Source: a virus. From it: 53,143 bases of DNA. This document shows positions 9,835-51,214 of this stretch, in pieces (position 1 is the first letter of the stretch; every line of letters starts with the position of its first letter). The DNA lies in the IMG/VR virus record IMGVR_UViG_3300039412_000400, positions 1 through 53,143 of that record; one strand, written 5' to 3'. The notes beneath the pieces were generated by a model that saw only the letters and a program-made list of their open reading frames with translations, did not search any database and had not been told where the DNA came from. The position numbers were made by a program, and so were the translations under genes.

Positions 9835-9850
9835 GTAATATTTTTGCAAT
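9835..9850 (+). promoter_or_regulatory. late-class promoter motif before structural operon
   Basis: GTAATATT-TTTG-CAAT fits the motif [GCA][CT]AATA[AT]T-N4-[CT]AT found before other structural units. A TTGACA at 9817-9822 lies upstream and TATAAT at 9850-9855 downstream, but their 27-base spacing is too long for a sigma-70 pair. Confidence 0.45.
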
Positions 9851-9948
9851 ATAATGTAATAAATACGGGCTCGCCAATAAAAAACAGAATAAGGTATCAA
9901 TATTCCTCTATTTAAGATAGGATATAATTCTGTGCAACAGGAGACATA

Positions 9949-10539
9949 ATGTCGAAATTTAGTTTAGATTACTCAGATCTGGCAAACAAAATCGTTAAGA
10001 GAGCATATCGTCTGTCAGACGTTAAAGATCAATTAGAAACCGTAGCTTTCGACATAGTTCGTTTCAAGGATGCCGATAAAGGTGCCGAGCTATGGCAAGT
10101 TCAGAGCGCTGATGATGGCGATTATATTGTCGCTCTATATGATGATACATCAGAGGCCGAGCTTGAAAAGACGGCCGGTAAAGCTAAAGAATGCAACTGC
10201 GGTCATGATAAGAGAGAGCACAAGGATGATGGATGCACAAAATGCAAACATTGCAAAAAGTTTAGGCCATTATCTGATGAGATCTCTGAAGAAGAAATGA
10301 AGGAGTGGGGCGTAAAATCCACGAAGAATGGTAGCTTCTTACAAATCTCTTATAAGGGAGACCCCATTATCAAGATGTCTTCTGCACAACTTGGCATTCC
10401 ACAAAATGAACTACACCTGGCAGAGCACTATTTGCCAGAAAAATTAGCGACAAATAAGTCGCTGGTTAAAGCGCTTCTAAAAGAGCTGAATGATATTGCG
10501 CGCTCAGAACTTTTTAAGAGATATCCAGAACTGGTTTAA
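9949..10539 (+). CDS. zinc-knuckle protein, structural operon
   Basis: A 196-aa protein. The middle holds a dense Cys/His cluster (CNCGHDKREHKDDGCTKC followed by HC, about residues 83-105) that would bind zinc. The C-terminal half is compact and helical. GGAG precedes the start. It heads the long operon to 20471, so a virion or assembly role is likely from context. I do not recognise the family. The first 40 residues are basic and helical, like other proteins in this operon. Confidence 0.7.
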   Translation: MSKFSLDYSDLANKIVKRAYRLSDVKDQLETVAFDIVRFKDADKGAELWQVQSADDGDYIVALYDDTSEAELEKTAGKAKECNCGHDKREHKDDGCTKCKHCKKFRPLSDEISEEEMKEWGVKSTKNGSFLQISYKGDPIIKMSSAQLGIPQNELHLAEHYLPEKLATNKSLVKALLKELNDIARSELFKRYPELV

Positions 10540-10556
10540 CGGAATATAAGGTGAAC

Positions 10557-12164
10557 ATGAGTTTCGACAAAATACATCAATTGGTCAATTCTTTAGCGAA
10601 AGAGCTTGACAATAGTCAAAAGCTTGCGACTCCATTTCTGGCTTCCAAGCTATCTAAGTATGCCGCCTTATATCCTCAAGATAAAACGCTTGGTAGTATG
10701 AGCAGAATAATTACAGATATGGTTGATCATAATAAGATGTTCATCTGTAAATCAGACCTGAAATCGCTCTATCATCAAATGCACTCATATGGAACGCATT
10801 TTGCTGAGCTATTTCAGACAGAACTTGGCGAAGCTCCTCCAGAGCCAACTGTAACGTTTGCTAAGACGGCTTCACCAAAAGAGATTGATCAATATAGCTC
10901 GGCCGATCAAGTTCTCGTAAATGCACTGGAAAGCGTTTTTGACAAGAATGTCCCATTGAAGATGTATTCTAAGAAACTTGCTGATAAGGCTCTTAAATCT
11001 GTGGCAACTACTTTTGATGCATGGAATATGTCTCCGACTCAGCTTGCTGTCGTTGAAGGTAATGATCGTTTTCTTGTTATTAAAGCCGACTATGAAACTC
11101 CAAAGGGCGTTACAAGTCTTTATGTTCCCGTTGAGGTCGCAAAGAATGATGTAATTGATCCAGAGATTTTTATGGGAAACAAAGGCCCGCAGCCACTTGA
11201 TAATGCAAATATTAAAGCATATGTAACACAACAGGCGGGCGTCAAAAATAAGATTGCCGCAAAAGACATCCTTAATGTTCTTGTTACTGCTGCCGCAGAA
11301 AAACGAGACATTAGTTCTGCCGAGATGGCGGTCATTCGTCTCAATGCTGCACGTAAAAATGATACAGAGTTTGCAGCTAATCAGGTCGGGAGTTTTGAGA
11401 CATTTGCCGCTCCAAAGCCAGATGTTCAGCTTCCAAAACATGATGAGTTTGAGTCGTTTGAGAAGCAATTTACAACTCCAAAGGGCGTTGCTGCATGGCA
11501 ATTTGGCGCAGAAACTGTTGCACTTGGTCGCACAAGTCTTGCTCGCGAATTAACTTCTTATGGTTTCACAAGCCCACAAATTGTTGTTACGGGCAGCGAT
11601 AAAGACACAATTTTCTATGGCGTGTCGCTTGATACAGGTAAGGCTGCGTTTGTTGTTCCCATTAAGATTGCAGATGGCAAAAAGCTTATGGCCCCAACCG
11701 TATTACTTTGCAATGGCTCGCTAGCCTCATTTGATAGGACAAGTATTAATGAGCTTGTTAGCACAAACAAGAAAGATACCAAGATTGCTGCCGTTGCTTC
11801 AACAATGGCAAGTCTTAAACCAAGCGAAATCCTTAATAATCTGCGCGATGCATTAGCAGAAGGTAATCTTCCAAAGGCAGAGGATGCGCTTAATGTTCTT
11901 GCAAAGTCTGGCGATGAAAAAGCCTATGCAACAGCATTTGCTATTTATATGCAGGGCTTGGCCGGAATTACAAAGACCGCCTCAACAGAATGCTCGCGCA
12001 TGATTAAGAGTGCAGTTAGCGAATATCCAATCTGCTCACATACCGGGCTTCCTATTAATAAGGTGTATCAGGATAAGGACGGTAATTGCCGACCACTATA
12101 TCGCAAGGGCATGGATGAGACATATGAAGGTGCCTCATTTATGAACGCCAAGATTTTTGGATAA
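10557..12164 (+). CDS. putative virion protein with internal duplication
   Basis: 535 residues if started at ATG 10557; GTG 10551 is an equally possible start because GGAA lies six bases before it. The protein contains two related segments: one with LAVVEGNDRFLV then SLYVPVEVA and FMGNKGPQPLD (about residues 165-230), and one with IVVTGSDKDTIFYG then AAFVVPIKIA and LLCNGSLASFD (about 340-410). Both share the order beta-strand, VP[VI]x[VI]A, then a loop and helix, so a domain has been duplicated. Similar segments join to basic helical ends. No enzyme motif is visible. It lies in the long virion-protein operon. Confidence 0.72.
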   Translation: MSFDKIHQLVNSLAKELDNSQKLATPFLASKLSKYAALYPQDKTLGSMSRIITDMVDHNKMFICKSDLKSLYHQMHSYGTHFAELFQTELGEAPPEPTVTFAKTASPKEIDQYSSADQVLVNALESVFDKNVPLKMYSKKLADKALKSVATTFDAWNMSPTQLAVVEGNDRFLVIKADYETPKGVTSLYVPVEVAKNDVIDPEIFMGNKGPQPLDNANIKAYVTQQAGVKNKIAAKDILNVLVTAAAEKRDISSAEMAVIRLNAARKNDTEFAANQVGSFETFAAPKPDVQLPKHDEFESFEKQFTTPKGVAAWQFGAETVALGRTSLARELTSYGFTSPQIVVTGSDKDTIFYGVSLDTGKAAFVVPIKIADGKKLMAPTVLLCNGSLASFDRTSINELVSTNKKDTKIAAVASTMASLKPSEILNNLRDALAEGNLPKAEDALNVLAKSGDEKAYATAFAIYMQGLAGITKTASTECSRMIKSAVSEYPICSHTGLPINKVYQDKDGNCRPLYRKGMDETYEGASFMNAKIFG

Positions 12165-12181
12165 AACGCGAGGTCGAAGTA

Positions 12182-13252
12182 ATGAGAATCGAAAACATTG
12201 GAAGGATATTGGCAATAAAGTATGCCCAACAACTTCCATCTAATATAGATAAGCAAGGAGTTCTTGAAGACATTGCAAGAGATGTCAAGGGTGCGTTGCA
12301 GTCTTATGTTTTCGATACCACATCAAAAAATCCTATTATTCAATATTTAGATAGACGAGGTTATGGTGGAACAATTGATCTTTTTGTTAAATATCTAATT
12401 AGCGAATCACTGACACTATATACAAAGATAGATGAATTAATAAAAGAGCCAGTTCAAGATCGTCTTCTTATGATTATGATGAATATTAAAAACGATATTC
12501 TTCAGGGTAAAAAAGCTGTTGTTGAGGCATTAAAACATTCTCTAAAATTAAATAATGAATCATCGCGTAATGAAGCAAATAGACTTGCAAGTAAATTTGA
12601 CATTACTGTGACTAACTTAGCAGATAATTTAACTCGAAAAGGTAGAATAGTTTATAAGTATTGCTCTCCAGAGTTCCAAGAGATTGCTGCAGATATAATA
12701 AAAGCCAAGGTTGAGTCGCAAAGAATGCCACTTACAAAAATGCAGCTTTTCATTTTTGCACATACGCCAGTTGCAGAAAAATATGGGCTTACATCTATTG
12801 AGATTTTGCAGAGACTTCTAGAAGATCCTGAAATGCGTGAAAAACTAACAACAGTTATCAATGCAGTTCATAGGGGGCATAATTTTCCAAAGAATGGGCC
12901 AGAAATTTTGGAAGAAGCGCAGGCAATAGCAAAACGAATGCAAATGCAACAGCCAAATAAAACTCTTGAGCTACCAGAAGGTGATTTTAGAGAGGCTCTT
13001 AATGTTTTTGTAGATCCTGCTGAGCGTGCATCGCATGTTGGCGTAGATGCTAAAAAACGTTTAGAAGAAGAGCGAGCTATTGAATCTGGCGGTCCAGAAG
13101 GCTCCGGTGAAACAGAAACTATGAGTCCAGAAGAACTTGAGCAAAAAATTCAAGAACGAGATGAGCTTGCAAGAAAAAACCAAGAACAACTTAACAAACC
13201 AAATAAGGAAAGAAGTTTCCTTCTTGATCAACTTTTGAGGATGAACCGATGA
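12182..13252 (+). CDS. hypothetical helical protein, structural operon
   Basis: A 356-aa, almost wholly helical protein with a charged C-terminal coiled region (about 300-350, rich in E, Q, R and K). No metal site, signal peptide or membrane span. GAGGTCG upstream (12170-12176) supports ATG 12182. It overlaps the next gene by ATGA. A head-completion or scaffold role would suit the position before terminase and portal, but nothing in the sequence proves it. Confidence 0.68.
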   Translation: MRIENIGRILAIKYAQQLPSNIDKQGVLEDIARDVKGALQSYVFDTTSKNPIIQYLDRRGYGGTIDLFVKYLISESLTLYTKIDELIKEPVQDRLLMIMMNIKNDILQGKKAVVEALKHSLKLNNESSRNEANRLASKFDITVTNLADNLTRKGRIVYKYCSPEFQEIAADIIKAKVESQRMPLTKMQLFIFAHTPVAEKYGLTSIEILQRLLEDPEMREKLTTVINAVHRGHNFPKNGPEILEEAQAIAKRMQMQQPNKTLELPEGDFREALNVFVDPAERASHVGVDAKKRLEEERAIESGGPEGSGETETMSPEELEQKIQERDELARKNQEQLNKPNKERSFLLDQLLRMNR

Positions 13253-13962
13253 GAACCGCAGAATTATTACAAGCTATGGCTTCATGGCTAGAAAGCCCAA
13301 ATAATGAAGCAATGTTATTGGCCGAGAATGATGAGAAGGCACTTAAGGTTGTTGCCGAATCTTGTGTTCTTGCTGCGGCATTACTAAAATCCGCCGCTGA
13401 AGAAGTTGATTTAATCGAGCCACAGCCCGAATCACTTCTTACACCAGAGGCAATTGAACAGACCGCTGCAATTGCTACCGCGTTTGATGCATCTGGTGAT
13501 CCACAACTAAAAAAGATGGCATCCGTTTTGGATGAACTTCTGCTTACAATTGCGGCTCCACCAAACGCACTCGCTCAAATCAAGCAAGCCGAAGATGACA
13601 GAATTGAACAGCTTCGTAAGAGATATGAACAACCACGCAAAGATCTACATGAATACAACAAGATAGGCGTTTCTGAACAGGCAATTGATAAGAGTAATTT
13701 TGCGAAGCCTCAGACAATAAATGAACGTCCGCTACAAACTCGCACATGCCCAGATCATCCGGGAGCACAGATGTCAAGAGTTGGCGAGCACATGTTTCAG
13801 TGTGATTTAGATAAGAAGCAATACAATTATGAAACTGGATATACTTTAGAGAACGGCGAGCACGTGCCAGGCGGATCGGTTGATTTGCAAACCGGTGATC
13901 AGAATACTCCATTCCATGCGATTTTTGATACAAGACAAGGGCGATTGGGCTACAATAGCTAA
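13249..13962 (+). CDS. putative virion protein with C-terminal CxxH/C module
   Basis: 237 aa. The N-terminal half is helical and Ala-rich. The C-terminal 80 residues contain TCPDHPG, then VGEHMFQCDLDKKQYNY, then GYTLENG and VPGGSV. That order (Cys-Pro-x-His near a later Cys, followed by Gly-rich turns) looks like a small zinc-stabilised beta module used in phage structural proteins. It overlaps the preceding gene by ATGA, so it is translationally coupled. Function unknown. Confidence 0.68.
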   Translation: MRTAELLQAMASWLESPNNEAMLLAENDEKALKVVAESCVLAAALLKSAAEEVDLIEPQPESLLTPEAIEQTAAIATAFDASGDPQLKKMASVLDELLLTIAAPPNALAQIKQAEDDRIEQLRKRYEQPRKDLHEYNKIGVSEQAIDKSNFAKPQTINERPLQTRTCPDHPGAQMSRVGEHMFQCDLDKKQYNYETGYTLENGEHVPGGSVDLQTGDQNTPFHAIFDTRQGRLGYNS

Positions 13963-13983
13963 TATTCACTTTTGCTAACTATC

Positions 13984-14007
13984 TATAATATTGTATCTAT
14001 TTTGACG
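13984..14007 (+). promoter_or_regulatory. weak candidate promoter inside structural operon
   Basis: TATAAT (13984-13989) overlaps a degenerate late-type motif ATAATATT-GTAT-CTAT (13985-14000), and TTGACG (14002-14007) follows. The 68-base gap before 14031 is one of the few spacers in this operon, so an internal promoter is plausible. Confidence 0.3.
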
Positions 14008-14030
14008 TATTATTTTATACAAAGGTCAAA

Positions 14031-14789
14031 ATGAACAAAACTGTAGTCCGTAAGATACTTGACCATCCTGATAGGGATGAGATAGTTAATAAGCTAATGT
14101 TAGATATTCCAGAGAGCGATATCAATGAGTGGCTTGCGGAAAAATATACAAACGTTAATGAAGCAAAGTTTGTATTAACCGAGAAAAATATTAAAGCATT
14201 TAAGGATAATTATTTAGACATTTATAGAACAATTCAAGACGATATGCACAAAACAAAATTGGCTGTTGTCAATAATGCAGAAGAGCAACTGGATTTGGCC
14301 GTCAAAAATAATCCGGCTTATAAGAGCAAGATTATGGAAGCTGTTGGTAAAGAGATTGACGTTCGCCAAATGGTTGCACATTTATGTGCTGCTATTGAAA
14401 TTCGTGTTGGACAGGTTTTTGATGAAATTCAGAATGATCCAAGAAATATTAATACCAAAGTTGACCGCCTCCTAATTGATTATGCCGAAGTTCTTGGCAC
14501 TATTTTAGAAAAGTATTACAAGTTTACAGAAAATCCTGCAGACCAAGTTATACAACATAATGTAACATTACAGGTTGTAGATCAGCACGTATTGCTTGTT
14601 CAAGAATGTATTCGTGAAGTTTTGCAATCTTTGGACCTTGAGAGTTCTATGTTGTTCATGGATCTATTTACAGAAAAAATGGCCAAGCTTAAGCTGCCTG
14701 CGCCAGAATCTGTAATGAACTCTGATACTAAGCTTGCTGAAGCAAAGGTCTTAAGCGAAACCATTAACAAAAAGCTAAATAGCAAATAA
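14031..14789 (+). CDS. hypothetical helical protein, structural operon
   Basis: 252 aa, mainly helical with no hydrophobic span, no cysteine cluster and no known motif. AAAGG (14021-14025) precedes ATG 14031. It stands after one of the operon's few spacers and four bases before the next gene. Function unknown. The even spread of charged and aliphatic residues suggests a coiled or helical-bundle structural protein. Confidence 0.68.
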   Translation: MNKTVVRKILDHPDRDEIVNKLMLDIPESDINEWLAEKYTNVNEAKFVLTEKNIKAFKDNYLDIYRTIQDDMHKTKLAVVNNAEEQLDLAVKNNPAYKSKIMEAVGKEIDVRQMVAHLCAAIEIRVGQVFDEIQNDPRNINTKVDRLLIDYAEVLGTILEKYYKFTENPADQVIQHNVTLQVVDQHVLLVQECIREVLQSLDLESSMLFMDLFTEKMAKLKLPAPESVMNSDTKLAEAKVLSETINKKLNSK

Positions 14790-16694: not shown

Positions 16695-18758
16695 ATGAAA
16701 CTGCGAGAACTTTTTCAAGAACTAACTGAAGTCCAAAAAGAACTTGGCATTGCCCCAGTTCTTATATGTGGTGGTACAGCCAGAGATAAATATATGGATA
16801 AGTTAGAGAATATCTCTGATGTCGATTTGACCAATGGCGAAAAGACAATGGATTATTTGTCTCAAGAGCTTGTTATTCAGTTAAGAAAAAAATATAATGT
16901 TACACGCAAAATTCATAAAGATCATAGCACAATTTTTGTTGGTAAATTAAAGTTAGACTTTTCTTCCAATTTTATGGTCCCCAATATAGACGCCATATTA
17001 GCAAAACTTGGTGTTACAAATCCGACTGATTTGCAAAGAGAAATGTATTCAAGAGATTTTACTTGTAATTCGTTGTTATTAACTCTTGATCTTAAACAGA
17101 TTTTAGATCCGACAAAACGTGGTGGCCAAGACATTGATGCAAAGAAAGTTAAGACATGTTTGGCCCCTGAAATAACTTTGGTTTCATATAAGAACAGAGT
17201 TATAAGAGCAATTTATCTTGCTTGTAAATTAGGGTTTGATATAGATGACAGTATTATTGAATATGTTCTAAAAAATCCGGCATCTGCCAAAATAGCAACT
17301 GAAAAAACTGTTATTGATAAACTTAATGCCGCTTTTGATAAAGATGCAGATAGGGCAAGTTATTATCTAACAAAAATGAATATTTGGAATCAGGTTCCAA
17401 TTATTGAAAAGGCCGCCCCATATTATAATCAAAGTCTAAAGAATACAACAAAATTGGCCTATTATCAAGGCGGTGGCGGCGTTAATGAACCAACGCCAGG
17501 AAAACCAAAATATGATGTTGATCCTGCAATTGTTGTTCAGCCTCATTTTGAGGAACCGTTCTATTACAATTATGATTATTTAGACACGGAAGGCATTGAT
17601 GGACAGCCACAATACGGTCCAGGAAGTGGCTGGGCGCATATGAACGAGTTCAAGAGTATAAAGGATTTTCTTGACTTCAGGCGCAAAAGATTAAAAAACA
17701 AGTACGTGGCTGACGACTCGTACATTGATGACTCGTCCGCAAATTATAAAGAACGCGTAGATAAGATGAAAATTCGGGCCAGTCTTTTATCCAAAATTAT
17801 AAAGACTGCAAAAAAAGAAGAACCAGAAACAGTTCCAGTTATCGAGCCAGATAATAATTGTTTTTTCTATGCAGCTATTATTGCTGCGCTTAATCCAAAG
17901 CTTAAGCTTATGAAGGGCCGACATACGGGACAACATAAAGAAGATACTGCACATTTTTGGGTTGAAAGTGAAGATGGAAAAATTACAGATCCAACCGCCT
18001 CTCAATATAAAGAAGGCCATGTTGAAGACGGAAAGCAGATAGATGTTCGTAAGAATATTGATGCAATTACTGGGCATAAGCTATTTTCATCATTACCAGA
18101 AAAATATCAAAAAAGAATTAAAGCTTTAAGTAAAGACGAAAATGATGGCCCCAATTTTGATTATGGTTCTGGCCTTTATATGAATATGGATAAATATAAA
18201 AGCATTAAAGATTTTGAGAAAAATAAACCAAAAGGCCAAGGCGCATTTTATAATGATGACAACAATATAGATTTTCCTGTTGATATTCAATCAGATACGA
18301 CGGCAGAATCACAAGCCGGCCCCATTCTTGGAGATTCAGAAACCTATCTTAAACCGGCTGTTATTGGTCCGTCTGTAGATGGAAATCCAAATGATGGAAT
18401 TATTCCAGGTTCCGTTGGTCTTGGTGATTTTACGACATATCCGCAGTCTAATCAATTAAGCGGATTCATGGATAGTTCTTTGCCACAGAACGATTTTGAG
18501 GGCAAACCACCGACAGAGCTTGATTTTGGAAGAGATTATACAGAAGATGTGGAGTTTCCCGGAACTCTTAATGAAGATGATTTAGAATCGCTTGAACATA
18601 AGTATCTAACACCGTCTGAAACTGACCTATTTGGCTTGCCAGATGGAATAGATCCAATTTCTGATGAAGACGCCGATGTTACTGTAAATAATAAGAATAC
18701 ATATTATGGAACTCCCGATACTGGAAGACAAATGTATGAAGATAAATGGAATATATGA
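16695..18758 (+). CDS. CCA-adding/poly(A)-polymerase-like nucleotidyltransferase fused to papain/transglutaminase-like segment
   Basis: The first 250 residues match the class II nucleotidyltransferase head: GGTARD (26-31), SDVDLT with D42/D44 as metal carboxylates, SRDFTCNSLLL (119-129) and a DP-x-x-GG-x-D region (138-146), then helices like the neck. Next comes YYQGGGGVNEPTPG (256-269), a module found twice in the 1202-aa protein at 30098. A later segment has NNCFFYAA (C389), AHFWVESEDG (H420) and TDPTASQ (D432), the Cys-His-Asp order of papain or transglutaminase folds. Two related pieces, YGPGSGWAHMNEFKSIKDF (307-325) and DYGSGLYMNMDKYKSIKDF (489-507), flank it. The last 160 residues are acidic. 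Bases 17590-17725 use a GC-richer codon style. The catalytic roles are inferred. Confidence 0.75.
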   Translation: MKLRELFQELTEVQKELGIAPVLICGGTARDKYMDKLENISDVDLTNGEKTMDYLSQELVIQLRKKYNVTRKIHKDHSTIFVGKLKLDFSSNFMVPNIDAILAKLGVTNPTDLQREMYSRDFTCNSLLLTLDLKQILDPTKRGGQDIDAKKVKTCLAPEITLVSYKNRVIRAIYLACKLGFDIDDSIIEYVLKNPASAKIATEKTVIDKLNAAFDKDADRASYYLTKMNIWNQVPIIEKAAPYYNQSLKNTTKLAYYQGGGGVNEPTPGKPKYDVDPAIVVQPHFEEPFYYNYDYLDTEGIDGQPQYGPGSGWAHMNEFKSIKDFLDFRRKRLKNKYVADDSYIDDSSANYKERVDKMKIRASLLSKIIKTAKKEEPETVPVIEPDNNCFFYAAIIAALNPKLKLMKGRHTGQHKEDTAHFWVESEDGKITDPTASQYKEGHVEDGKQIDVRKNIDAITGHKLFSSLPEKYQKRIKALSKDENDGPNFDYGSGLYMNMDKYKSIKDFEKNKPKGQGAFYNDDNNIDFPVDIQSDTTAESQAGPILGDSETYLKPAVIGPSVDGNPNDGIIPGSVGLGDFTTYPQSNQLSGFMDSSLPQNDFEGKPPTELDFGRDYTEDVEFPGTLNEDDLESLEHKYLTPSETDLFGLPDGIDPISDEDADVTVNNKNTYYGTPDTGRQMYEDKWNI

Positions 18759-18804
18759 ATTATTTCGTATATAAACACGTAAAAAATGTATGAGGTAACC
18801 TAAC

Positions 18805-20499: not shown

Positions 20500-20517
20500 C
20501 TAATATTTTTGTATGAT
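20500..20517 (+). promoter_or_regulatory. late-class promoter before terminase
   Basis: CTAATATT-TTTG-TATGAT matches the late motif. TATGAT ends five bases before the terminase ATG (20523), and there is no Shine-Dalgarno, so the message may be leaderless. Confidence 0.55.
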
Positions 20518-24374: not shown

Positions 24375-24794
24375 ATGAGAAAATGTAGAATCTGTAATAT
24401 TGAACTTACTAATGAAAATACTCATAATTATACAACAAAACAGCACCGCATATGTAAAGAGTGCGAAAGAAAGAGAAAAAATGATAAAAATTATAAAGAC
24501 AAAATCGCCCTTATAAAAGAATATGGCGGAAAATGCGTTTGTTGTGGAGAATTTGAGCCTATTTTTCTGACTATAGATCATATAAATGAAGATGGAGCTA
24601 AACATAGAAAAGAAAATGGCATATATGCTGGCGCAAGTTTTTATAGATGGCTTAAACAACAAGGATATCCAAAAGATAATTATCAAGTTTTATGTTTTAA
24701 TTGTAATTTTGCAAAACATGTATTAGGTAAATGTCCTCATCAACTCCCACCAGCAGGAGGCGCACCACCGCCACCCCCACCGCCAGCAAAATAA
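24375..24794 (+). CDS. small HNH homing endonuclease with proline tail
   Basis: 139 aa. An N-terminal zinc finger (C4/C7 with C27/C30) leads to an HNH module: CVCCGE (52-57), LTIDHINEDG with H71 as the catalytic His, then VLCFNCNFAKH. The last 20 residues are Pro-rich (PPPPPPPAK), a composition like the end of the upstream portal gene. It begins 11 bases after the portal stop without a Shine-Dalgarno. AT-rich codon use marks it as an insertion between portal and the next structural gene. Likely a free-standing homing nuclease. Confidence 0.85.
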   Translation: MRKCRICNIELTNENTHNYTTKQHRICKECERKRKNDKNYKDKIALIKEYGGKCVCCGEFEPIFLTIDHINEDGAKHRKENGIYAGASFYRWLKQQGYPKDNYQVLCFNCNFAKHVLGKCPHQLPPAGGAPPPPPPPAK

Positions 24795-24814: not shown

Positions 24815-24830
24815 CCAATAATTAGACATA
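24815..24830 (+). promoter_or_regulatory. late-class promoter before 24863 gene
   Basis: CCAATAAT-TAGA-CATA fits the late motif, 33 bases before the start codon. Confidence 0.5.
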
Positions 24831-29852: not shown

Positions 29853-29868
29853 CTAATATTATTGCATA
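29853..29868 (+). promoter_or_regulatory. late-class promoter motif, distal copy
   Basis: CTAATATT-ATTG-CATA. A second, closer copy lies at 29896. Confidence 0.35.
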
Positions 29869-29895: not shown

Positions 29896-29912
29896 GTAAT
29901 ATCACATTATAG
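29896..29912 (+). promoter_or_regulatory. late-class promoter before 29939 gene
   Basis: GTAATATC-ACAT-TATAG fits the late motif with one change, 27 bases before the small gene at 29939. Confidence 0.45.
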
Positions 29913-35306: not shown

Positions 35307-35346
35307 AGCCAAGCTGCCCATCCTATTCGGTTGCTTGGCTTTTTTG
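35307..35346 (+). terminator. intrinsic terminator shared with end of LAGLIDADG gene
   Basis: An 8-bp stem (AGCCAAGC 35307-35314 with 35333-35340) is followed by TTTTT. The right arm also encodes the last residues of the convergent endonuclease gene on the minus strand. Confidence 0.88.
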
Positions 35347-36165
35347 TTTCTGATATTCTATGAACTCTTGATATTTTTCGTATTTTCGTGGGAGATAAAT
35401 GGTTGCGTCTTTGTATAGCCAATCAAGAACTTGACGAACTTGTAAGTTCCCGCCAACAGATAAAGAGGTTGTTATTTGATTTGTTTTTGGTTTGCATAAT
35501 GATTTAGAACAGGTAATATTAAGTTCATCTTTTAATAGTTTTGAAGTCTCATTACAAAATTGTTTAGTAGATACGATTTTCCATATTGTATTAATCGTCT
35601 TTTTTTTCTTAAACTGGTTTTTATAAATTGTTCCATCACCATCACTATATCCTCTAAGAAAATGTCTGATAAACTCTTTGGGAACAGTTATGGGGAACTC
35701 TAAAATTAGCGATTTATTTGGAACGCATCCATGTGAAACGAGTTGTTCACATATCTCTTTTTGATTAATTCTAAAATAAGAATATGTATTACTAGATTTT
35801 TTATTTCGTGTTATTTTTATTGGAGATGACGGAGACATAATATCTCGAAAGTTTTCTATAATATATTGATCATTAGATTTTAGTTTAAGCGTCATACAAT
35901 AGTTATTATTATTAGTTTGTACATTACCATCAGCATACAACAATCCAAGAAAATATGCGCTATTCTCGCTATTGATCTCTTGAAAAAACTGAATATTTAT
36001 GTCTGTATAAACAATTTTTTTACCAACTCTTGTTGTAATATTTTTGCGTCGTAAAACCGCACTTACACCAGTTTGTGTACAACCAATTAGTATAGCAATT
36101 TCTTTTTGAGTTTTTCCAGTATTGTATAAGTCAATCATTTCTTGCATTTTTTGCTCTGAAAACAT
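35323..36165 (-). CDS. LAGLIDADG homing endonuclease with N-terminal HTH
   Basis: 280 aa from ATG 36165, which has GGAG eight bases upstream; the frame extends to 36195 without a better start. An HTH fills residues 1-45 (KTQKEIAILIG...GVSAVLRR). Two LAGLIDADG helices are visible: AYFLGLLYADG (70-80) and FLRGYSDGDG (169-178), each ending in the acidic metal residue. It is a paralogue of the N-terminal part of the fusion at 47650. Free-standing, on the minus strand and convergent with the upstream structural genes. Its stop codon lies in their terminator hairpin. AT-rich codons. Confidence 0.92.
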   Translation of the reverse strand: MFSEQKMQEMIDLYNTGKTQKEIAILIGCTQTGVSAVLRRKNITTRVGKKIVYTDINIQFFQEINSENSAYFLGLLYADGNVQTNNNNYCMTLKLKSNDQYIIENFRDIMSPSSPIKITRNKKSSNTYSYFRINQKEICEQLVSHGCVPNKSLILEFPITVPKEFIRHFLRGYSDGDGTIYKNQFKKKKTINTIWKIVSTKQFCNETSKLLKDELNITCSKSLCKPKTNQITTSLSVGGNLQVRQVLDWLYKDATIYLPRKYEKYQEFIEYQKQKSQATE

Positions 36166-36185
36166 AATTTCACTCCATAAAATGA

Positions 36186-36193
36186 TATATAAC
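36186..36193 (-). promoter_or_regulatory. GTTATATA promoter for LAGLIDADG gene
   Basis: On the minus strand, TTGTTATATAT contains TATATA preceded by TG (extended -10), 20 bases before the start codon. Confidence 0.5.
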
Positions 36194-36280
36194 AATGAGA
36201 TACTAATTTTTGCTACGCATTGTACAAAAATAAATTATGAGGCGTTGGAGATACGACAATGGACTACGATTCTTAGATTA

Positions 36281-36958: not shown

Positions 36959-36992
36959 TTTCAGAAAACATGTAAAAATAAGCTAAACTCGT

Positions 36993-37000
36993 GTTATATA
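36993..37000 (+). promoter_or_regulatory. GTTATATA promoter before GIY-YIG gene
   Basis: GTGTTATATAG gives TG-x-TATATA (extended -10), 18 bases before the ATG. The same motif class precedes the other endonuclease genes. Confidence 0.5.
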
Positions 37001-37018
37001 GTGTGTTGGAGAAGCAAA

Positions 37019-37834
37019 ATGTCACAAGACACAACACAAAAAATATGGTCGCTTTACAAAATTATTAACCTAATTAATGGAAAAATCTATATAGGACAGA
37101 CTGTACAGCCAGAAAAACGTTGGTATCAACATCGTAGAGACGCTGCTAATCCAAAATATCCTATACATTTTGCTATCAATAAATATGGGGCACACAATTT
37201 TGAGTTTGAAGTCATTGCGTCTTGTAAATCGCAAGATGATGCAAATTGTATGGAAGAAGAGCTTATTAAGCAATATGATAGTTTGGTAAAAAATGGCAAA
37301 GGATACAATATCTCGCTCGGCGGCATGGTAGCTCAAAAATCTGATGAATGGAAACAAGCATTAGAAAAATGGAGATCGTCACTTACTCAAGAAGAAAAGG
37401 ATGCTATAAATAAAAAACGATCTGACGCAACGATCAAACAAATTGAAACACAAGGCCACCCATCACTTGGTAAAAAACGAAATGAAGAACAACTAAAACA
37501 AATGAGTTTAACTCGTCAAGATCATCCGATAGAATATACAGAAGAAATTAGACAGCATATGTCGAAAGCGCATATAGGACTTAAAGACACTGAAGAAACA
37601 AAGAAAAGAAAATCGGAAAGCATCAAAAAATCATGGGAGAAGCGTCATCAAAATATGATAATGTCTGGTGAATTAAAATGTAATGCGCCTGGATGTAATG
37701 TTAGTGGTATAGTCAGTTATTTGATTGTAAATAATATTAGATATTGCTATAAGCATGGTGATCGTCTAAAACGAACTGGATTTTTAGAATTGCAGCAGAA
37801 GAAAACTAAATTAGAGAATAAAGACAATCTATGA
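37019..37834 (+). CDS. GIY-YIG homing endonuclease
   Basis: 272 aa from ATG 37019, chosen for GGAGAAG at 37008-37014; an in-frame GTG at 37001 would lack a site. The GIY-YIG domain is at residues 10-102: LYKI then KIYIGQT, R34, a Glu in MEEELI, and YNISLGG. Next comes a helix-rich linker with a NUMOD3-like DNA-binding patch (HPSLGKKRNEEQ). A C-terminal zinc-finger-like C-x4-C...YC-x2-H segment ends the protein. AT-rich codons and placement between structural genes mark a homing endonuclease gene. Confidence 0.9.
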   Translation: MSQDTTQKIWSLYKIINLINGKIYIGQTVQPEKRWYQHRRDAANPKYPIHFAINKYGAHNFEFEVIASCKSQDDANCMEEELIKQYDSLVKNGKGYNISLGGMVAQKSDEWKQALEKWRSSLTQEEKDAINKKRSDATIKQIETQGHPSLGKKRNEEQLKQMSLTRQDHPIEYTEEIRQHMSKAHIGLKDTEETKKRKSESIKKSWEKRHQNMIMSGELKCNAPGCNVSGIVSYLIVNNIRYCYKHGDRLKRTGFLELQQKKTKLENKDNL

Positions 37835-37835: not shown

Positions 37836-37854
37836 ATAATATTCCTGTATATAG
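37836..37854 (+). promoter_or_regulatory. late-class promoter before ejection-type operon
   Basis: ATAATATT-CCTG-TATATAG is a full match to the late motif, 29 bases before ATG 37883. Confidence 0.55.
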
Positions 37855-43550: not shown

Positions 43551-43566
43551 GTAATAATTAAGTATA
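43551..43566 (+). promoter_or_regulatory. late-class promoter before first surface-protein paralogue
   Basis: GTAATAAT-TAAG-TATA. A conserved leader follows (see the entry for 43573-43630). Confidence 0.55.
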
Positions 43567-43630: not shown

Positions 43631-44365
43631 ATGTTAAAACCACTACAAGCAATTATGCCAATGGGCCAGTTTGACGGCCATGACACAGAAGTCGCCTCAT
43701 TCGTAGGTGGAGAAGTCTGCTCACTTATGTATGTCGCCAATACAGTAGCTACCGATAAGGCAGCTTATGACGCATTTGACGGATATGTCCTTGCGAGTAC
43801 CACACAGGTTCGTCCAGTTGTAACTAAGACCTTTAGTTCCGCCGTATCTCTATCTCCATCTGGTCCAATGTTCTTGGCCGATGATGGTATTTGGGGTTAT
43901 GGAACTCTATTAGGCTCTGTTGTTGGGCAAACTGTCGGCCAAACCACTTATGGTTACGGCCAAGTTCCTTCAACTCTACTTGGACCAAGTACAGCTACCG
44001 GCTCTGGCAAGATCACTTGCTGGGGTATGCCAGGTCTATATCTAATTTCTCTTGATGCAGTTGATAGCACTAACGCAACAGCGAGCACAGGTCTTAGCCC
44101 AATCAACGCCGCACTAACAGGTGGCGATGCTCTTACCTTCACGACTTCTGGTCAATTAACTCCAGTTGGAAAGAAAGTTGCCGGCTCAACTTATGCTTAT
44201 GGTAGCCCACAGGTTGGTCACCTCGTTGACTTCAATACAAACGGCTCACTTGTAAATACACCAAATTACCTTGTCGCCGCTCTAAACAGCCCAAGTGGTA
44301 ACATGTCGTCAGTAACTGCAAGATCACTGCTTTACGCAACTGTATGGTTTAATCCAACTCAATAA
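43631..44365 (+). CDS. abundant virion surface/decoration-type protein, copy 1
   Basis: 244 aa, beta- and Gly/Ser/Thr-rich with several aromatic turns (IWGYGTLLGSVVGQ, TTYGYGQVPSTLLG). No enzyme motif. Most residues from about 82 to the end match the next gene, with the N-terminal third more diverged. Codon use is GC-richer than in the endonuclease genes, as for the major capsid gene, which suits high expression. AAAAGGAAA upstream gives the ribosome site. A capsid decoration or head-surface protein is the likely role, inferred from composition and neighbours. Confidence 0.75.
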   Translation: MLKPLQAIMPMGQFDGHDTEVASFVGGEVCSLMYVANTVATDKAAYDAFDGYVLASTTQVRPVVTKTFSSAVSLSPSGPMFLADDGIWGYGTLLGSVVGQTVGQTTYGYGQVPSTLLGPSTATGSGKITCWGMPGLYLISLDAVDSTNATASTGLSPINAALTGGDALTFTTSGQLTPVGKKVAGSTYAYGSPQVGHLVDFNTNGSLVNTPNYLVAALNSPSGNMSSVTARSLLYATVWFNPTQ

Positions 44366-44446: not shown

Positions 44447-44462
44447 GTAATAATGTTATATT
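44447..44462 (+). promoter_or_regulatory. late-class promoter before second paralogue
   Basis: GTAATAAT-GTTA-TATT, with the same shared leader below. Confidence 0.55.
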
Positions 44463-44527: not shown

Positions 44528-45250
44528 ATGTTAAAACCACTACAAGCAATTATGCCCATGGGTCAATTCGATGCAGCCGATGCTGAACTCGCATCATTCA
44601 AGGGTGGCGAAGTTTGCACACTCGGATATGTTGTTAATACAGCAGCTACCGACAAAGGCGCCTATGACGTTTTTGACGGCTATGTTGATACCGCTGGCGG
44701 ATTCAAGCGCCCAGTCGTAACCAAGACCTTCAGTTCTTCAAGCGCAATAGGCGGACCACTCTTCCTCGCAGATGACGGTATTTGGGGTTACGGGACTCTT
44801 CTTGGTTCAGTCGTAGGTCAGACCGTTGGTCAGACAACTTACGGTTACGGTCAAGTTCCATCAACTCTACTTGGACCAAGCACTGCTGCAGGTTCTGGTA
44901 AGATTACCTGCTGGGGTATGCCAGGTCTATATTTGGTTTCGCTCGATGCAGTTGATAGCGCAAATGCTACATCAAGCACGGGCCTTAGCCCAGTAAATGC
45001 TGCCTTAACTGGTGGTGACGCACTCACAATGACCATAGCTGGTCTTTTGACTCCAGTTGCTTGCCCAGTTGGAACTCCTGCTGACGCAAGTCCACAAGTT
45101 GGCCATCTTGTTGATTTCAATACTAATGGTTCGCTTGTTAACACACCAAATTATCTAGTTGCAGCTCTAAACAGCCCAAGTGGTAATATGTCGTCAGTTA
45201 GCCCACGTTCATTACTTTACGCGACAATCTGGTTCTCCCCAAGAATCTAA
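44528..45250 (+). CDS. abundant virion surface/decoration-type protein, copy 2
   Basis: 240 aa, paralogue of the gene before it. The opening MLKPLQAIMPMGQFD and the whole C-terminal two-thirds (from ADDGIWGYG on) are nearly the same, while residues about 30-75 and 165-185 differ. The promoter motif and leader are duplicated with it, so the unit was copied whole. It ends at a terminator that also carries the stop of the convergent HNH gene. Confidence 0.75.
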   Translation: MLKPLQAIMPMGQFDAADAELASFKGGEVCTLGYVVNTAATDKGAYDVFDGYVDTAGGFKRPVVTKTFSSSSAIGGPLFLADDGIWGYGTLLGSVVGQTVGQTTYGYGQVPSTLLGPSTAAGSGKITCWGMPGLYLVSLDAVDSANATSSTGLSPVNAALTGGDALTMTIAGLLTPVACPVGTPADASPQVGHLVDFNTNGSLVNTPNYLVAALNSPSGNMSSVSPRSLLYATIWFSPRI

Positions 45251-45292: not shown

Positions 45293-46267
45293 TTAGGCAC
45301 AGATTAATTTCTGTGCCTTTTCTTTTTGATATTCTTGAATTCGTTTGATCCAATCGTGAAATTGTTCGAGAGTAAGATTATTTTTAGCAAAATTACAGCG
45401 TATACAGCAAGGAACAATATTATCAATTGCGTGTGTTTTAGACGGATCAATTCTATCAATGCCATTATAATAGAAATTAGAGTTTTCTTTTGCTATTTGT
45501 GAAGCTTTTTTATCATTCAAATATGGATTACAACAATTAGTATTTTGGGCCCCACAATATGTACATGGTAATTGAGAATAAGTATAAAATGTTTGAAGAT
45601 CTATTTCCATAGTTTTATAATTTACTACATAATGTCTATAAGCCATTTTTAATGAATGAAGTATATATGTTTCTGGTAATTTTAGTAGGACTTGTGGTTT
45701 AATAAAATCAATATTTTTTAATGTATTAATATACTTATAAAAATCATTTAATGAGTAATCACATTTTGCACAATTACAAATAAGGCAACATGCAACTACA
45801 TTATTAGAAATATGTGGTAATAAATTATCAATTCTATCTAATCCGTTGTATGTAAAACTACCATTGTCTTTTGCATATTGTGATGATATATTTTTTGTTA
45901 AAAAATAGTTATATATATTTGATGGTCTATTTCCGCAATAAAAACAATTTTGCTGGCTAATATTAAACCATTCATCAAATGTTAATGTACACAATTTATC
46001 TTGATAACAATAGCTTTTCCACAATCTTCGTGCCGAAGCAATATGCGGCTTATATTTTCTATTGGCTTTAATTGCATATTTTACATTATTTTTTGATGCG
46101 TTTACTTTTAGACAACCACATGATTTAGTATTTCCAGATATAAGATGTGTAGTTGATACAATAGTTTTATTTCCACAATCACATATGCAATTCCAATATC
46201 CGCTATCATAAAATATTGGTGTTAGTTTTTCAAATTTTTGTCCAAGTAAATTAATTTTTTTAGCCAT
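45293..46267 (-). CDS. HNH endonuclease with two HNH domains
   Basis: 324 aa from ATG 46267; the frame extends to 46303 but the inner start is preceded by AAGAGA. The N-terminal 50 residues form a zinc ribbon typical of phage HNH proteins (CICDCG and SCGCLK). Two HNH modules follow: one with CFYCG, YNGLDRID and CLICN, and one with CTYCG, YNGIDRID and CIRCN, each ending in FxxWI/FYKYI-type helices. Duplicated HNH is unusual. AT-rich codons. The stop codon and last four residues lie inside the terminator hairpin of the upstream gene on the other strand. Confidence 0.88.
   Translation of the reverse strand: MAKKINLLGQKFEKLTPIFYDSGYWNCICDCGNKTIVSTTHLISGNTKSCGCLKVNASKNNVKYAIKANRKYKPHIASARRLWKSYCYQDKLCTLTFDEWFNISQQNCFYCGNRPSNIYNYFLTKNISSQYAKDNGSFTYNGLDRIDNLLPHISNNVVACCLICNCAKCDYSLNDFYKYINTLKNIDFIKPQVLLKLPETYILHSLKMAYRHYVVNYKTMEIDLQTFYTYSQLPCTYCGAQNTNCCNPYLNDKKASQIAKENSNFYYNGIDRIDPSKTHAIDNIVPCCIRCNFAKNNLTLEQFHDWIKRIQEYQKEKAQKLICA
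45295..45327 (+). terminator. terminator overlapping end of HNH gene
   Basis: A 9-bp stem (AGGCACAGA 45295-45303 with 45310-45318) and a T-rich tail. It ends the second surface-protein unit. Confidence 0.88.
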
Positions 46268-46345: not shown

Positions 46346-46361
46346 ATAATAATTTCATATG
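46346..46361 (+). promoter_or_regulatory. late-class promoter before major capsid gene
   Basis: ATAATAAT-TTCA-TATG fits the late motif. The leader to 46429 also carries a TTTGCC/GGCAAA palindrome (46394-46405) and an ATTCCAAA like the surface-protein leaders. Confidence 0.5.
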
Positions 46362-47443: not shown

Positions 47444-47472
47444 TTAGCCTATAAGTAAGTGTTTTAGCTTAT

Positions 47473-47512
47473 ATTGGGCCCGGGTATTAGGTTACTCGGG
47501 CCCAATTTTTTA
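47473..47512 (+). terminator. strong terminator after major capsid gene
   Basis: A 10-bp perfect GC-rich stem (47473-47482 with 47497-47506, ATTGGGCCCG arms) is followed by TTTTTTAT. Confidence 0.95.
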
Positions 47513-47519
47513 TATTCGA

Positions 47520-47593
47520 TTTACGGTTCGTCAGTTTAAATTGTCGTTATAGTGGTATTTTTTACGGTTCGTGTGTTATTTTTTACGGTTCTT
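47520..47593 (+). repeat. three phased direct repeats upstream of fusion gene
   Basis: TTTACGGTTC[GT]T occurs at 47520-47531, 47561-47572 and 47582-47593. Starts are 41 and 21 bases apart, close to four and two helical turns, so they could be a protein-binding array before the promoter at 47596-47623. Confidence 0.85.
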
Positions 47594-47595
47594 CG

Positions 47596-47623
47596 TTGCA
47601 TAATTCAAAATATTCGTTATATA
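47596..47623 (+). promoter_or_regulatory. promoter of LAGLIDADG-methyltransferase gene
   Basis: TTGCAT (47596-47601), a 16-base spacer and TATATA (47618-47623) form a sigma-70-like pair that includes the GTTATATA motif at 47616-47623. The third direct repeat ends just before the -35. Confidence 0.65.
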
Positions 47624-47649
47624 CGTTGTGACAGCAAAGGAGCCGTACC

Positions 47650-49719
47650 ATGAAAAAACTAGCAAATGAGCAGATTTCAGAAATTATCGCGCTATATCAA
47701 CAAGGCGTGCCGCCAAAAATTATTGGAGAAAAGTTTGGCATTTTTAATAACAGTGTTACGCGCATCTTACGTAAAAAAGGCATTGATCGCAATCAATTAG
47801 AAAAGGTTAATGATGAAGATGTCAAATACTTGATTGAACAATATATTGCTGGCAAATCATCTACACTTATAGCGTGTGAACTTGACATTTGCGATACTAC
47901 CGTTGTAAGGATACTCAGGCGCAATAATATTACTATACGGCCAAATGAAGATAATAAGCGAAAATACAAGATCGATCAAAATTATTTTCATGCCATTGAT
48001 ACCGAAGAAAAGGCCTATTTTTTAGGGCTATTATATGCTGATGGTAATTTGTCTAATACACGCCATGACGTAAGATTATGCCTACAAAAAGAAGATAGCG
48101 ATATTGTTGAGAAGTTTTCTAGAGCAATATATGGATTTGCTAAAACCTATCAAACGGAAGCTACATTGCAAGACGGATCTGTTAGATATTATGTAAACGC
48201 GCCAATATATAGTAAACAAATACATCACGATTTAGTTAAATTGGGGTGTACGCCGAATAAAGCATTTGATATTCGTGTGCCAACATTTTTGTCAGCAGAA
48301 TTGCTTCGTCATTTTATTCGTGGATATTTTGATGGCGATGGGTGTATTAGTATTGCTAATGTAAATAAGCCAGTAATTGACTTTAGTTCTAATGCTATTT
48401 TCATTAGAGAACTAATTCCGATTTTAGAGTCAAATGGAATTAAATGTGGCAAATTATGTCTAAATAAAGAGAACGAATTATCTGGAAGCGTTCAACTAAC
48501 AAGCCTAGATAATGTTGTAAAGTGCTATAACTATTTATATGATGGCTGCACTATTTATATGAACAGAAAATACAACACATTTCAAGAGCTGTTACGCGTG
48601 CAAAAAGACAAATGCGATCGTAAAACTGGTAAAATATGCAATATAAACAATTATGGAACAACATTTATACCAACATACAATGACACAATACTAACTAGTG
48701 ATAACATTAAAATTATGAGCGCCGAGCAAAAAGAAGATGTCGCACAGTTTTTGCTATCTTTTTATAGGCAGCATGGATTTCCATATCCAATACTGGAAGA
48801 CGTGGAATTGATACGACAATTTGCTGCACTTAAAAATACGAATGTTGATACGATAGAGAAAGATCATATATTGCGTACAGATAACCAGTCTGGCTCCAGA
48901 ATAACTCGACATTTTTCACCACATTTTTTCGAAGTAAAATCTGGTATTGATACTTCTTGGCCGAGCCTATTAGAAGCTTTTGAGAGCGATAAACTTCTAC
49001 TACACACCATCAAAAATAGATTGGGATATAACTATGGTATGACTGGAAATATGCTACGACAGGGGCTAGCAAACTCAAAAATAGCTTTCAAGGCTAGCAC
49101 ATTTAATACTGTTGTTGCTAAATACATTTATTCCAAATACACAAAAGAAAACAGCATAATTTACGACTACTCAATGGGTTTTGGACAAAGATTGACTGCA
49201 GCATTGTCGCTTCCATACCACATCAAATATGTGGGAGTGGATGTTTGGGACAAGTCATATGAAAGTAATCAAAAGATTTTTGCGTTCCTTAATAAAAATG
49301 TACCGTTTCTAAACAAAGAGGCAGAGCTTTATTGTATTGGATCGGAAAATTATTGTGCCAACGAAATGATTGGAAAAGTAAATGTTGCTTTTTCTAGCCC
49401 ACCATACTATATTTTGGAGCACTACACTGATGATGAAACGCAGGCATATGCTAGTGGCAATTATTTGAAGTTTTTAGATTGGTGGCGAGCAACTACTAAC
49501 AATGTTGATCGGCTATTGGCAAAAGATGGAGTATTCATTATAAACGTGAATAATATTGTGGATGGATTTAATATTGGCGAAGATATGTGCGGAATAATAA
49601 AAGAGAAAGGCTATGTTTTGGAGGAAACATATAGGATCAGGCTTACCAGAAACCTTCAATTTGCCAACAAAACCGGAACACACAAATATGAGCCAATTTA
49701 TGTTTTCAGGCGCGGCTAA
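47650..49719 (+). CDS. fusion of two HTH units, LAGLIDADG endonuclease and DNA adenine methyltransferase
   Basis: 689 aa. Residues 1-45 and 50-95 are two HTH units. Then comes a LAGLIDADG nuclease with AYFLGLLYADG (122-132) and FIRGYFDGDG (222-231), closely like the protein at 35323. After about residue 345 begins a methyltransferase: a conserved lead-in (FYRQHGFPYPILEDVELIRQ, then HFSPHFFEV), motif I YDYSMGFGQRL (505-515, AdoMet site), and motif IV SSPPYY (582-587), the [DSN]PP[YF] catalytic site of N6-adenine or N4-cytosine enzymes, with DGVFIINVNN after it. The C-terminal end fits the target-recognition or last motif region. AAAGGAG sets ATG 47650. No frame break is seen, so the fusion looks intact. 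The two enzymes may cut and protect related sites, by inference. Confidence 0.88.
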   Translation: MKKLANEQISEIIALYQQGVPPKIIGEKFGIFNNSVTRILRKKGIDRNQLEKVNDEDVKYLIEQYIAGKSSTLIACELDICDTTVVRILRRNNITIRPNEDNKRKYKIDQNYFHAIDTEEKAYFLGLLYADGNLSNTRHDVRLCLQKEDSDIVEKFSRAIYGFAKTYQTEATLQDGSVRYYVNAPIYSKQIHHDLVKLGCTPNKAFDIRVPTFLSAELLRHFIRGYFDGDGCISIANVNKPVIDFSSNAIFIRELIPILESNGIKCGKLCLNKENELSGSVQLTSLDNVVKCYNYLYDGCTIYMNRKYNTFQELLRVQKDKCDRKTGKICNINNYGTTFIPTYNDTILTSDNIKIMSAEQKEDVAQFLLSFYRQHGFPYPILEDVELIRQFAALKNTNVDTIEKDHILRTDNQSGSRITRHFSPHFFEVKSGIDTSWPSLLEAFESDKLLLHTIKNRLGYNYGMTGNMLRQGLANSKIAFKASTFNTVVAKYIYSKYTKENSIIYDYSMGFGQRLTAALSLPYHIKYVGVDVWDKSYESNQKIFAFLNKNVPFLNKEAELYCIGSENYCANEMIGKVNVAFSSPPYYILEHYTDDETQAYASGNYLKFLDWWRATTNNVDRLLAKDGVFIINVNNIVDGFNIGEDMCGIIKEKGYVLEETYRIRLTRNLQFANKTGTHKYEPIYVFRRG

Positions 49720-49817
49720 AATTTCATATCTATCGCTAATAAATAGCATATGTGCCATATTACAAGCCATACCAATATTTTTGCATTACCACATAGATCT
49801 ATCATAAGAAGAGGCCC

Positions 49818-50537
49818 ATGCTTTTACCATTACCAGACGTTTTTGACATATATGATTTGATATCAAGCGGCTCAAAAGATATTAATGTTCGCAATCAATC
49901 AAGAATGCTTAGAAAAGCCGCATTTGACACATTATGTCCAAAAGATGGGTTCACAAAAGTAGCATTTGATACACGTCGTATTGATCAAGAAACTGGTTTT
50001 AATCCAAGACGTGGATTACAGAATTATAATCGAAGTGAAGCATTTGTTAGCGAAGCAATGTCGCAAAAAGTAAAAAACTTTGCGAAACTTCGCACAGTTC
50101 TCAATACAATTCACGATAAGTATGGCAGAGAACATGAATGGCAAGATTCTAATGCGCGTGTTCTGCTTTCAACGCTTGATAATGGATTAAGAACATTCAT
50201 AAAAGACGGCGATTTCACTGATAGTCAGCCATCAATGGGCAGTTTTGATTATATTGAAGAGCTTCTTCATGTTCGATATAGACTTGGCTTCGATGATCTT
50301 ACAAAACTTGGTGAGCAAGAACTTGAACATATTATTCTTTCTAAAGATGAAGATTTGCTTCATAAAGACATGAACCATGCACTTGAAATTAGAAAATCAG
50401 ATATTGGAAAAGAAAATTACAATGATCTGATTGAGAAGTTATTAGCTGATTGTCGAGCAAGTGCTGAACACCCAAATGTTGAACGAGAAATCACCATTAG
50501 AGTTAGAGATACGTTTTTGGAGAAGAAAGGCGCCTAA
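49818..50537 (+). CDS. hypothetical virion-block protein
   Basis: 239 aa, charged and helical, without cysteines in a metal pattern and without membrane spans. AGAGG (49809-49813) precedes the ATG. A near-match to the late motif occurs at about 49735 (CTAATAAA...CATA). It is three bases before the next structural gene. A connector or tail-completion role would fit position but I do not recognise the family. Confidence 0.66.
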   Translation: MLLPLPDVFDIYDLISSGSKDINVRNQSRMLRKAAFDTLCPKDGFTKVAFDTRRIDQETGFNPRRGLQNYNRSEAFVSEAMSQKVKNFAKLRTVLNTIHDKYGREHEWQDSNARVLLSTLDNGLRTFIKDGDFTDSQPSMGSFDYIEELLHVRYRLGFDDLTKLGEQELEHIILSKDEDLLHKDMNHALEIRKSDIGKENYNDLIEKLLADCRASAEHPNVEREITIRVRDTFLEKKGA

Positions 50538-50540
50538 CCA

Positions 50541-51179
50541 ATGGATGTTTTTGCGCCAGGTCATAAAAAATGTTGTGCATTTGTTGTGAGAAACGTTTCA
50601 CGACAATATAAGACCATTCATATTTTTCATTATCCTATTAATTTAGGCTGCACACGAGATTTGCTTGCAATTCCTGGCGTTGCAGAGGACGATATTCGTG
50701 CATCTTTATTAAAAGGCGAAATTAAACATAAGTTTGATTGCAAAGATATTGAACTTGTTTATAGCGATATTGATTTGCTACAATTTAGTGAATGTAATAG
50801 GAATTGGCTTATAAGTCTTGGTTTTACAATTGGAGTTCAAGTTGGATATGACGAATTAGACGGATATGTGCAAAGCCTTTTCCAAACAAGTGGGGGCATT
50901 CGTTATTTATGGAGAGAAGAAAAAAATCTTATAGGAATATGTGATTGCACAAATAGAGTTTTTAATACCGTAGAAAAATTCTTAAATGGAACATATGTCA
51001 CTGGTGATCAGTTCCACATTCATATAAAACATAACGGAAAAGACCTTTATGAAGGAATAGACTATCTTATTAGCGAATCTGGTGGAACAGGAACAGGATA
51101 TGATACAATCACACTTATATCATTCACTCCAAATAAACACAGTGTATTAAAATGCACATATGCTGTTCCAGTTCCATAA
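50541..51179 (+). CDS. putative virion structural protein
   Basis: 212 aa. The N-terminal half has RDLLAIPGVAEDDIRASLLKG and a later DIDLLQFS segment, a combination I associate with conserved phage structural proteins of unknown fold. The C-terminal part is beta-rich with Gly-rich turns. AAAGGCG ribosome site upstream in the previous gene. Followed by a late-type promoter for the fibre-like gene. Function not certain. Confidence 0.68.
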   Translation: MDVFAPGHKKCCAFVVRNVSRQYKTIHIFHYPINLGCTRDLLAIPGVAEDDIRASLLKGEIKHKFDCKDIELVYSDIDLLQFSECNRNWLISLGFTIGVQVGYDELDGYVQSLFQTSGGIRYLWREEKNLIGICDCTNRVFNTVEKFLNGTYVTGDQFHIHIKHNGKDLYEGIDYLISESGGTGTGYDTITLISFTPNKHSVLKCTYAVPVP

Positions 51180-51196
51180 TCTTTTTGCAAATATAG

Positions 51197-51214
51197 GCAA
51201 TAATCTCATATATA
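51197..51214 (+). promoter_or_regulatory. late-class promoter before fibre-like gene
   Basis: GCAATAAT-CTCA-TATATAG fits the late motif, 38 bases before GTG 51252. Confidence 0.55.

Follow-up and report, generated by a model that had tools for sequence, protein, structure and literature searches.

Phage SPO1 is served by a cascade of phage sigma factors, gp28 and gp33/gp34, and its middle and late promoters bear a -35 box, unlike the motif described here. Phage T4 reads its late promoter, TATAAATA, with a sigma factor split between gp55 and gp33, the latter a mimic of sigma region 4 (PMC2988020). The late promoter of phage AR9 is AACA-N6-T(A/G), whose last base is the start of transcription, and it is used by the non-virion RNA polymerase of the phage (PMC5312081), with the AACA block at -11 to -8 and the start at +1 (PMC9209446). 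Here we analyze IMG/VR virus record IMGVR_UViG_3300039412_000400, a stretch of 53,143 bases called the window throughout, and in it a motif of two AT-rich blocks at a fixed distance, VYAATAWTNNNNYAT, which an earlier note on the sequence had proposed as a phage-specific late promoter not of the T4 type. With a probability of about 70%, a family of uncultured jumbo phages uses the motif as its late promoter, read by the host core polymerase together with a phage sigma factor of 209 amino acids. All the evidence is computational and comes from motif, homology, profile and structure-prediction work.

Several properties are shared with the systems described. As in T4, the promoter would consist of a -10-type block without a -35 box and be read for late virion genes by a phage sigma factor on the host polymerase, with a separate region-4-like protein beside the region-2 factor (PMC2988020). 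The consensus differs, however: the block TATAAATA is not present here, a conserved start block is, and sigma2 and sigma4, divided in T4 between gp55 and gp33, would here be fused in one protein. The T4 review itself raises the question of a fused late sigma factor, absent in T4 (PMC2988020), and the 209-residue protein offers one of that kind. With AR9 the motif shares its geometry, namely a four-base block at -11 to -8, then six unconstrained positions, a pyrimidine at -1 and an A at +1, although the letters differ (AACA there, AATA here) and AR9 has its own polymerase that reads template-strand uracils (PMC5312081, PMC9209446), whereas no such polymerase was found in the relatives searched here. 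The spacing common to both, despite the different polymerase, is probably convergent. Like the sigma factors reported for group 2 jumbo phages (PMC7824862), those found here comprise a minimal type with only a helix-turn-helix (HTH) and a fuller type of the kind that recruits the host polymerase.

Taken singly, the components are familiar; what sets the system apart is its consensus, the fused sigma factor and the AR9-like layout. The open literature searched, with subscription journals and preprints outside its scope, contained no report of the motif in a title or in the opening lines of an abstract, and nothing combining TAATAAT with late promoter and phage; no study of gene timing in this phage family was found there either. 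The motif offers a readable late-gene code, with a candidate sigma factor, for widespread uncultured jumbo phages, and early and late genes would become sortable from sequence alone in their genomes.

The motif in the window and its relatives

The window has 11 matches to VYAATAWTNNNNYAT, 10 forward and 1 reverse, against 2.82 ± 1.66 in 100 whole-window dinucleotide shuffles (largest, 9). Nine of the 10 forward matches are intergenic, and all nine face the next gene. Within the 25 window gaps, forward matches number 9 and reverse matches 0; in 1000 dinucleotide shuffles of these gaps the mean was 0.20 and the maximum 4, and 0/1000 attained 9, so that the enrichment over AT-matched shuffled sequence on which the earlier note had staked its proposal holds. 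The two-block motif is real. Two exact matches within reading frames, at 45957 (forward) and 15953 (reverse), look like chance.

The same asymmetry is seen in relatives. Among 61 relative loci, none of which was used in defining the pattern (some recur in part, or on the same contigs, in later sets), 26 kb of intergenic sequence gave 33 forward and 4 reverse matches, and 780 kb of open reading frames (ORFs) gave 13 and 7. Blind expectation-maximization (EM), a search of the kind that the earlier note had suggested as a check, was run on the relatives' gaps without pattern input and also recovered the motif: it ranked top in G001, G002, G003, G004 and the pooled G009-G012, with log-likelihoods of 105 in G001 and 95 in G003 versus 59 and 63 for shuffles, a control covering these two of the five sets. 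In G007 a repeat ranked first and the motif was not on top. A profile pooled from 417 gaps of eight relatives and seeded from the consensus (about 200 sites) scored above 6 in 174 of 441 gaps of the window plus the eight relatives, largely its training set, compared with 46 reverse-complemented and about 12 permuted. Outside the training set, the 481-kb relative G013 had 53/234 gaps above 6 versus 17 antisense and 0 to 9 permuted (mean, 4.2).

Ten structural-side units had been credited with the motif in the earlier note. Eight of these positions fit the pattern (20500, 24815, 29853, 37836, 43551, 44447, 46346 and 51197), two of them, 37836 and 46346, being weak on the family profile. The other two each carry one mismatch, a terminal CAA at 9835 and a C at the eighth base of 29896, and the site kept in relatives before the 9949 unit is 9897, not 9835. 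Its three near-matches fared unequally: 18756 is strong, 13985 is moderate with the core shifted by some bases, and 49735 does not rise above 4.5 on the family profile. The pattern is matched exactly 37 bases further on, at 49772, a site that had been overlooked. The sites are as follows, all on the + strand, with profile scores and the predicted first transcribed base (+1).

9897..9911, +, putative late promoter before the 9949 unit; profile 8.1; above 6 before the 9949 orthologue in 7/7 tested relatives; not listed in the earlier note; predicted +1 at 9910
9835..9849, +, site of the earlier note, possible second start of the 9949 unit; one mismatch (CAA for YAT); profile 7.1
13982..13996, +, moderate promoter-like site before 14031; profile 6.8; not kept in 3/3 tested relatives; predicted +1 at 13995
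18756..18770, +, putative late promoter before 18805; profile 10.0; 8/8 relatives; predicted +1 at 18769
20500..20514, +, putative late promoter before the terminase large subunit (20523); exact match, profile 8.0; predicted +1 at 20513
24815..24829, +, putative late promoter before 24863; exact match, profile 11.7; 8/8 relatives; predicted +1 at 24828
29853..29867, +, putative late promoter before small ORF 29939 and head-protease gene 30098; exact match, profile 10.4; predicted +1 at 29866
29896..29910, +, second, weaker site in the same gap; one mismatch; profile 7.4
37836..37850, +, putative late promoter before the 37883 operon; exact match; profile 5.1 here, above 6 in 7/8 relatives; predicted +1 at 37849
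43551..43565, +, putative late promoter before surface paralogue 43631; exact match, profile 11.7; 3/3 relatives; predicted +1 at 43564
44447..44461, +, putative late promoter before surface paralogue 44528; exact match, profile 11.4; 5/5 relatives; predicted +1 at 44460
46346..46360, +, putative late promoter before the major capsid protein (MCP) gene 46430; exact match; profile 4.7 here; predicted +1 at 46359
49772..49786, +, putative late promoter before 49818; exact match, profile 8.2; 4/7 relatives; predicted +1 at 49785
51197..51211, +, putative late promoter before fibre-like gene 51252; exact match, profile 8.6; 2/2 relatives; predicted +1 at 51210

The gene class carrying the motif was assessed in eight relatives, each gene being classed solely by its window homologue (virion side if this lies past 9800; left side, with RecA, SSB, RuvC etc., if it lies before), and four homing-endonuclease families and the window itself being excluded. 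The motif stood at 62/92 virion-side gaps versus 1/17 left-side gaps (Fisher p = 2e-6), and a family-majority count gave 12/21 versus 0/5 (p = 0.03). In a larger set of capsid-gene upstream regions, 25/61 scored above 6 versus 6 reverse-complemented and 4.0 permuted. G001, whose gene examples were chosen after the scores were known and serve as illustration only, has the motif before tail sheath, baseplate and tail-fibre genes and not before those for DNA polymerase, ligase, tyrosyl-tRNA synthetase, RNA ligase and ribonucleotide reductase. An earlier class test (102/140 versus 1/34) was discarded as biased, some G001 labels having been chosen by score.

Promoter layout and start position

From 155 non-redundant sites the consensus is T(-15)..NAATA[AT]T..R[CT]AT; blind discovery in the relatives gives [CT] in place of the N. 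Strong conservation spans -15 to +2, and no -35 box was found, with information of at most 0.06 bits per position at -40 to -25. The start register comes from 151 ATG-start sites scoring above 6, of which 86 have a Shine-Dalgarno sequence. This sequence never begins less than 8 bases past the Y of [CT]AT and begins at 8-10 bases in 17/86; therefore, the transcript should begin at or very near [CT]AT. The exact +1 that we infer is the A of [CT]AT, with the Y at -1 and AATA occupying -11 to -8. Reading [CT]ATA as a -10 hexamer was ruled out, because it would sever the Shine-Dalgarno sequence in those 17 sites.

The same data bear on the idea that the motif is no promoter and acts as a translation leader, an operator or a processing site of late mRNA. 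In many genes the start codon does follow 10-40 bases after the site, and the AATATT core is palindromic in part. Yet the inner spacing stays constant although the start codon may be as near as 10 or more than 200 bases away, the motif ends before the Shine-Dalgarno sequence in 86/86 sites, and it keeps a sense orientation, unlike a symmetric operator. We consider this explanation highly improbable. Blind discovery, sense orientation, the link to virion-side genes and the start register together support what the earlier note had proposed, a late promoter that is specific to the phage, has a fixed spacing and differs from T4 TATAAATA.

How such a promoter might be read is a more speculative matter. 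One tentative scheme, which we would not favor over its negation, makes the promoter truly bipartite: the phage sigma holoenzyme would recognize two elements in melted DNA, the start block and the block at -11 to -8, with the start fixed by sequence, so that a fused sigma2-sigma4 factor would have converged on the AR9 layout.

The 209-residue sigma factor and the protein at 7936

The sigma factor of 209 residues occurs on 32 contigs (67-100% identity). It matches PHROG 351 (E 8e-19) and, in a PDB profile comparison, SigA across regions 2 and 4 (E 1.6e-10); in a structure model with a pLDDT of 74.6 and a pTM of 0.45, its predicted sigma2 fits SigA at 2.1-2.5 Å over about 100 residues. A region-2 sigma is present in 5/8 relatives, and PF04542 matches in 9/10 large relatives, 8 above the cut-off. 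The motif precedes the sigma gene itself in 27/27 distinct upstream regions, 31-50 bases before the start (1 reverse-complemented, 2.0 permuted), with 3 of these genomes belonging to the profile training. In the alignment with SigA, the two tryptophans that we take to open the -10 element are N/K/H and Y in the 209-residue protein, and the residues that presumably contact -12 are T and S, changes that would fit the loose -12 position of the motif.

Phage polymerases were also looked for. The multisubunit type (PF00562) was found in 0/12 relatives and 0/10 further large ones, with AR9 matched as a positive control, and the single-subunit type (PF00940) in 0/9 relatives with a matched T7 control and in 0/8 in a run without a positive control.

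On the mechanism that we propose, the promoter would have no -35 box and would pair a -10-like AATA[AT]T with a start block, [CT]AT, transcription beginning at the A of the latter. Late in infection, a host RNA polymerase core reprogrammed by the 209-residue factor (sigma2 plus sigma4) would start the operons for virion, packaging and lysis, and the sigma gene would be amplified through its own late promoter. The motif, its orientation, gene class and conservation, the bound on the start site, the sigma factor in relatives and the lack of phage polymerase matches come directly from the computation. Recognition of the motif by this factor, the late timing and the role of the protein at 7936 are what we infer from these patterns.

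The late promoter could instead be read by a host sigma factor, or by an unseen phage factor, with the 209-residue protein serving other promoters. The blocks are -10-like, and a sigma gene that bears the motif implies that something else must start it. Replication genes, which a host enzyme would be expected to transcribe first, lack the motif, however, and the motif-free gaps, searched for a second motif, yielded only weak or AT-rich patterns and no other strong promoter-like motif for the sigma factor to serve. There is also a single region-2 sigma match above the cut-off per genome in 8/10 genomes. We regard this alternative as unlikely.

The earlier note had named another recogniser, the sigma-like protein encoded at 7936.

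7936..8376, +, conserved HTH protein of 146 aa resembling sigma region 4, not part of the motif regulon and possibly a helper; matches Pfam Sigma70_r4_2 at 25.9 bits (cut-off, 25.7) and sigma families of PHROG

The protein is conserved and syntenic (61-77% identity) and is encoded just before the virion block. Only region-4/HTH families match it, with the best stretches within residues about 26-143, and no region 2 was found. Its gene has the motif upstream in 1/57 regions (background, 4-5) and, being without it, probably yields its product earlier; the protein could thus exist before the late genes are expressed, a point in favor of recognition by 7936 alone. A region-4-like HTH offers no region 2 for a -10-type element, however, and region 4 would find no -35 box in the motif; the structure model is weak, with nothing returned by Foldseek at E ≤0.001. 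Its conservation stands, and its candidacy as sole reader is weakened to the point of being very unlikely. By analogy the 7936 protein may be a polymerase helper like T4 gp33, which would act as an earlier co-factor beside the 209-residue factor.

Several observations weigh against reading of the motif by that factor as a late promoter. The sigma gene lies outside the 53-kb window, and its presence in this phage is deduced from relatives, among which G001 and G013 have it downstream. As it bears its own late promoter, a first source of sigma is needed, and none was found. G007, 1 of the 10 large relatives, has no sigma match, although its contig probably stops short of where the gene would be expected, because the capsid gene lies near the contig end; the motif is weak there as well (30/199 gaps above 6 versus 14 reverse-complemented and 5 permuted). 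The motif is AT-rich and partly palindromic, and the reverse-complement background of 46 versus 174 of 441 gaps is not negligible. The family-level statistics of the class test are modest, one left-side gene (the 1613 orthologue) exceeds 6 in one relative, and the virion side is uneven (head protease, 0/5; portal, 3/9; capsid, 3/7), with 36/61 of the relatives' MCP upstream regions scoring 6 or below.

The phage and other elements in these genomes

The window is most likely part of a larger jumbo phage genome, because its terminase has 61 relatives in IMG/VR (64-77% identity) and its capsid protein has relatives on contigs of up to 480,838 bases. The capsid protein has 282 confirmed places in the viral collection, with 86-93% identity in the best 80 of the 282. 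The tail is probably contractile, since genes for a tail sheath and for a baseplate protein occur in one relative. Among isolates the resemblance is to phage G (Bacillus), in the capsid (53%), portal (34%) and head-protease region (34%); the window terminase had no match within the phage G stretches compared. Blind discovery in 182 gaps of the first 250 kb of phage G gave T-rich patterns only and not the motif. Phage G is placed in subgroup 3.2, and group 3 is said to be without sigma factors (PMC7824862), in contrast to the family with phage G-like portal, protease and capsid studied here. A 383-kb contig binned with a Chitinophagales metagenome-assembled genome (MAG), JAIXLO010000160.1, bears a capsid stretch 80% identical, a weak hint that is too weak for naming a host.

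Further elements were observed. In G013, 0/50 gaps at 420-480 kb score above 6 with the late-promoter profile. The + strand of this genome carries 48 copies of TCCCATTCAC and the - strand none; 45/48 lie beyond 415 kb, with the next ATG 31 bases downstream for 11 of these 45, and ten other genomes tested have 0-1 copies. It is perhaps an early promoter or a leader repeat of a block without late promoters. G007 has, on both strands, a repeated element in which CCCATGACTAAA..TCATGGG leads into a conserved tail; it resembles a small mobile element of the inverted-repeat type. The window itself is broken up by homing-type endonuclease genes at 8441-9490, 24375-24794, 35323-36195 (-), 37001-37834 and 47650-49719. 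Directly upstream of endonuclease genes, the gaps 8377-8440, 36959-37000 and 47444-47649 hold a different AT-rich element around GTTATATA, perhaps the first motif class of the earlier note.

The surface-protein paralogues at 43631-44365 and 44528-45250 are similar to each other, and a strong putative late promoter stands before each.

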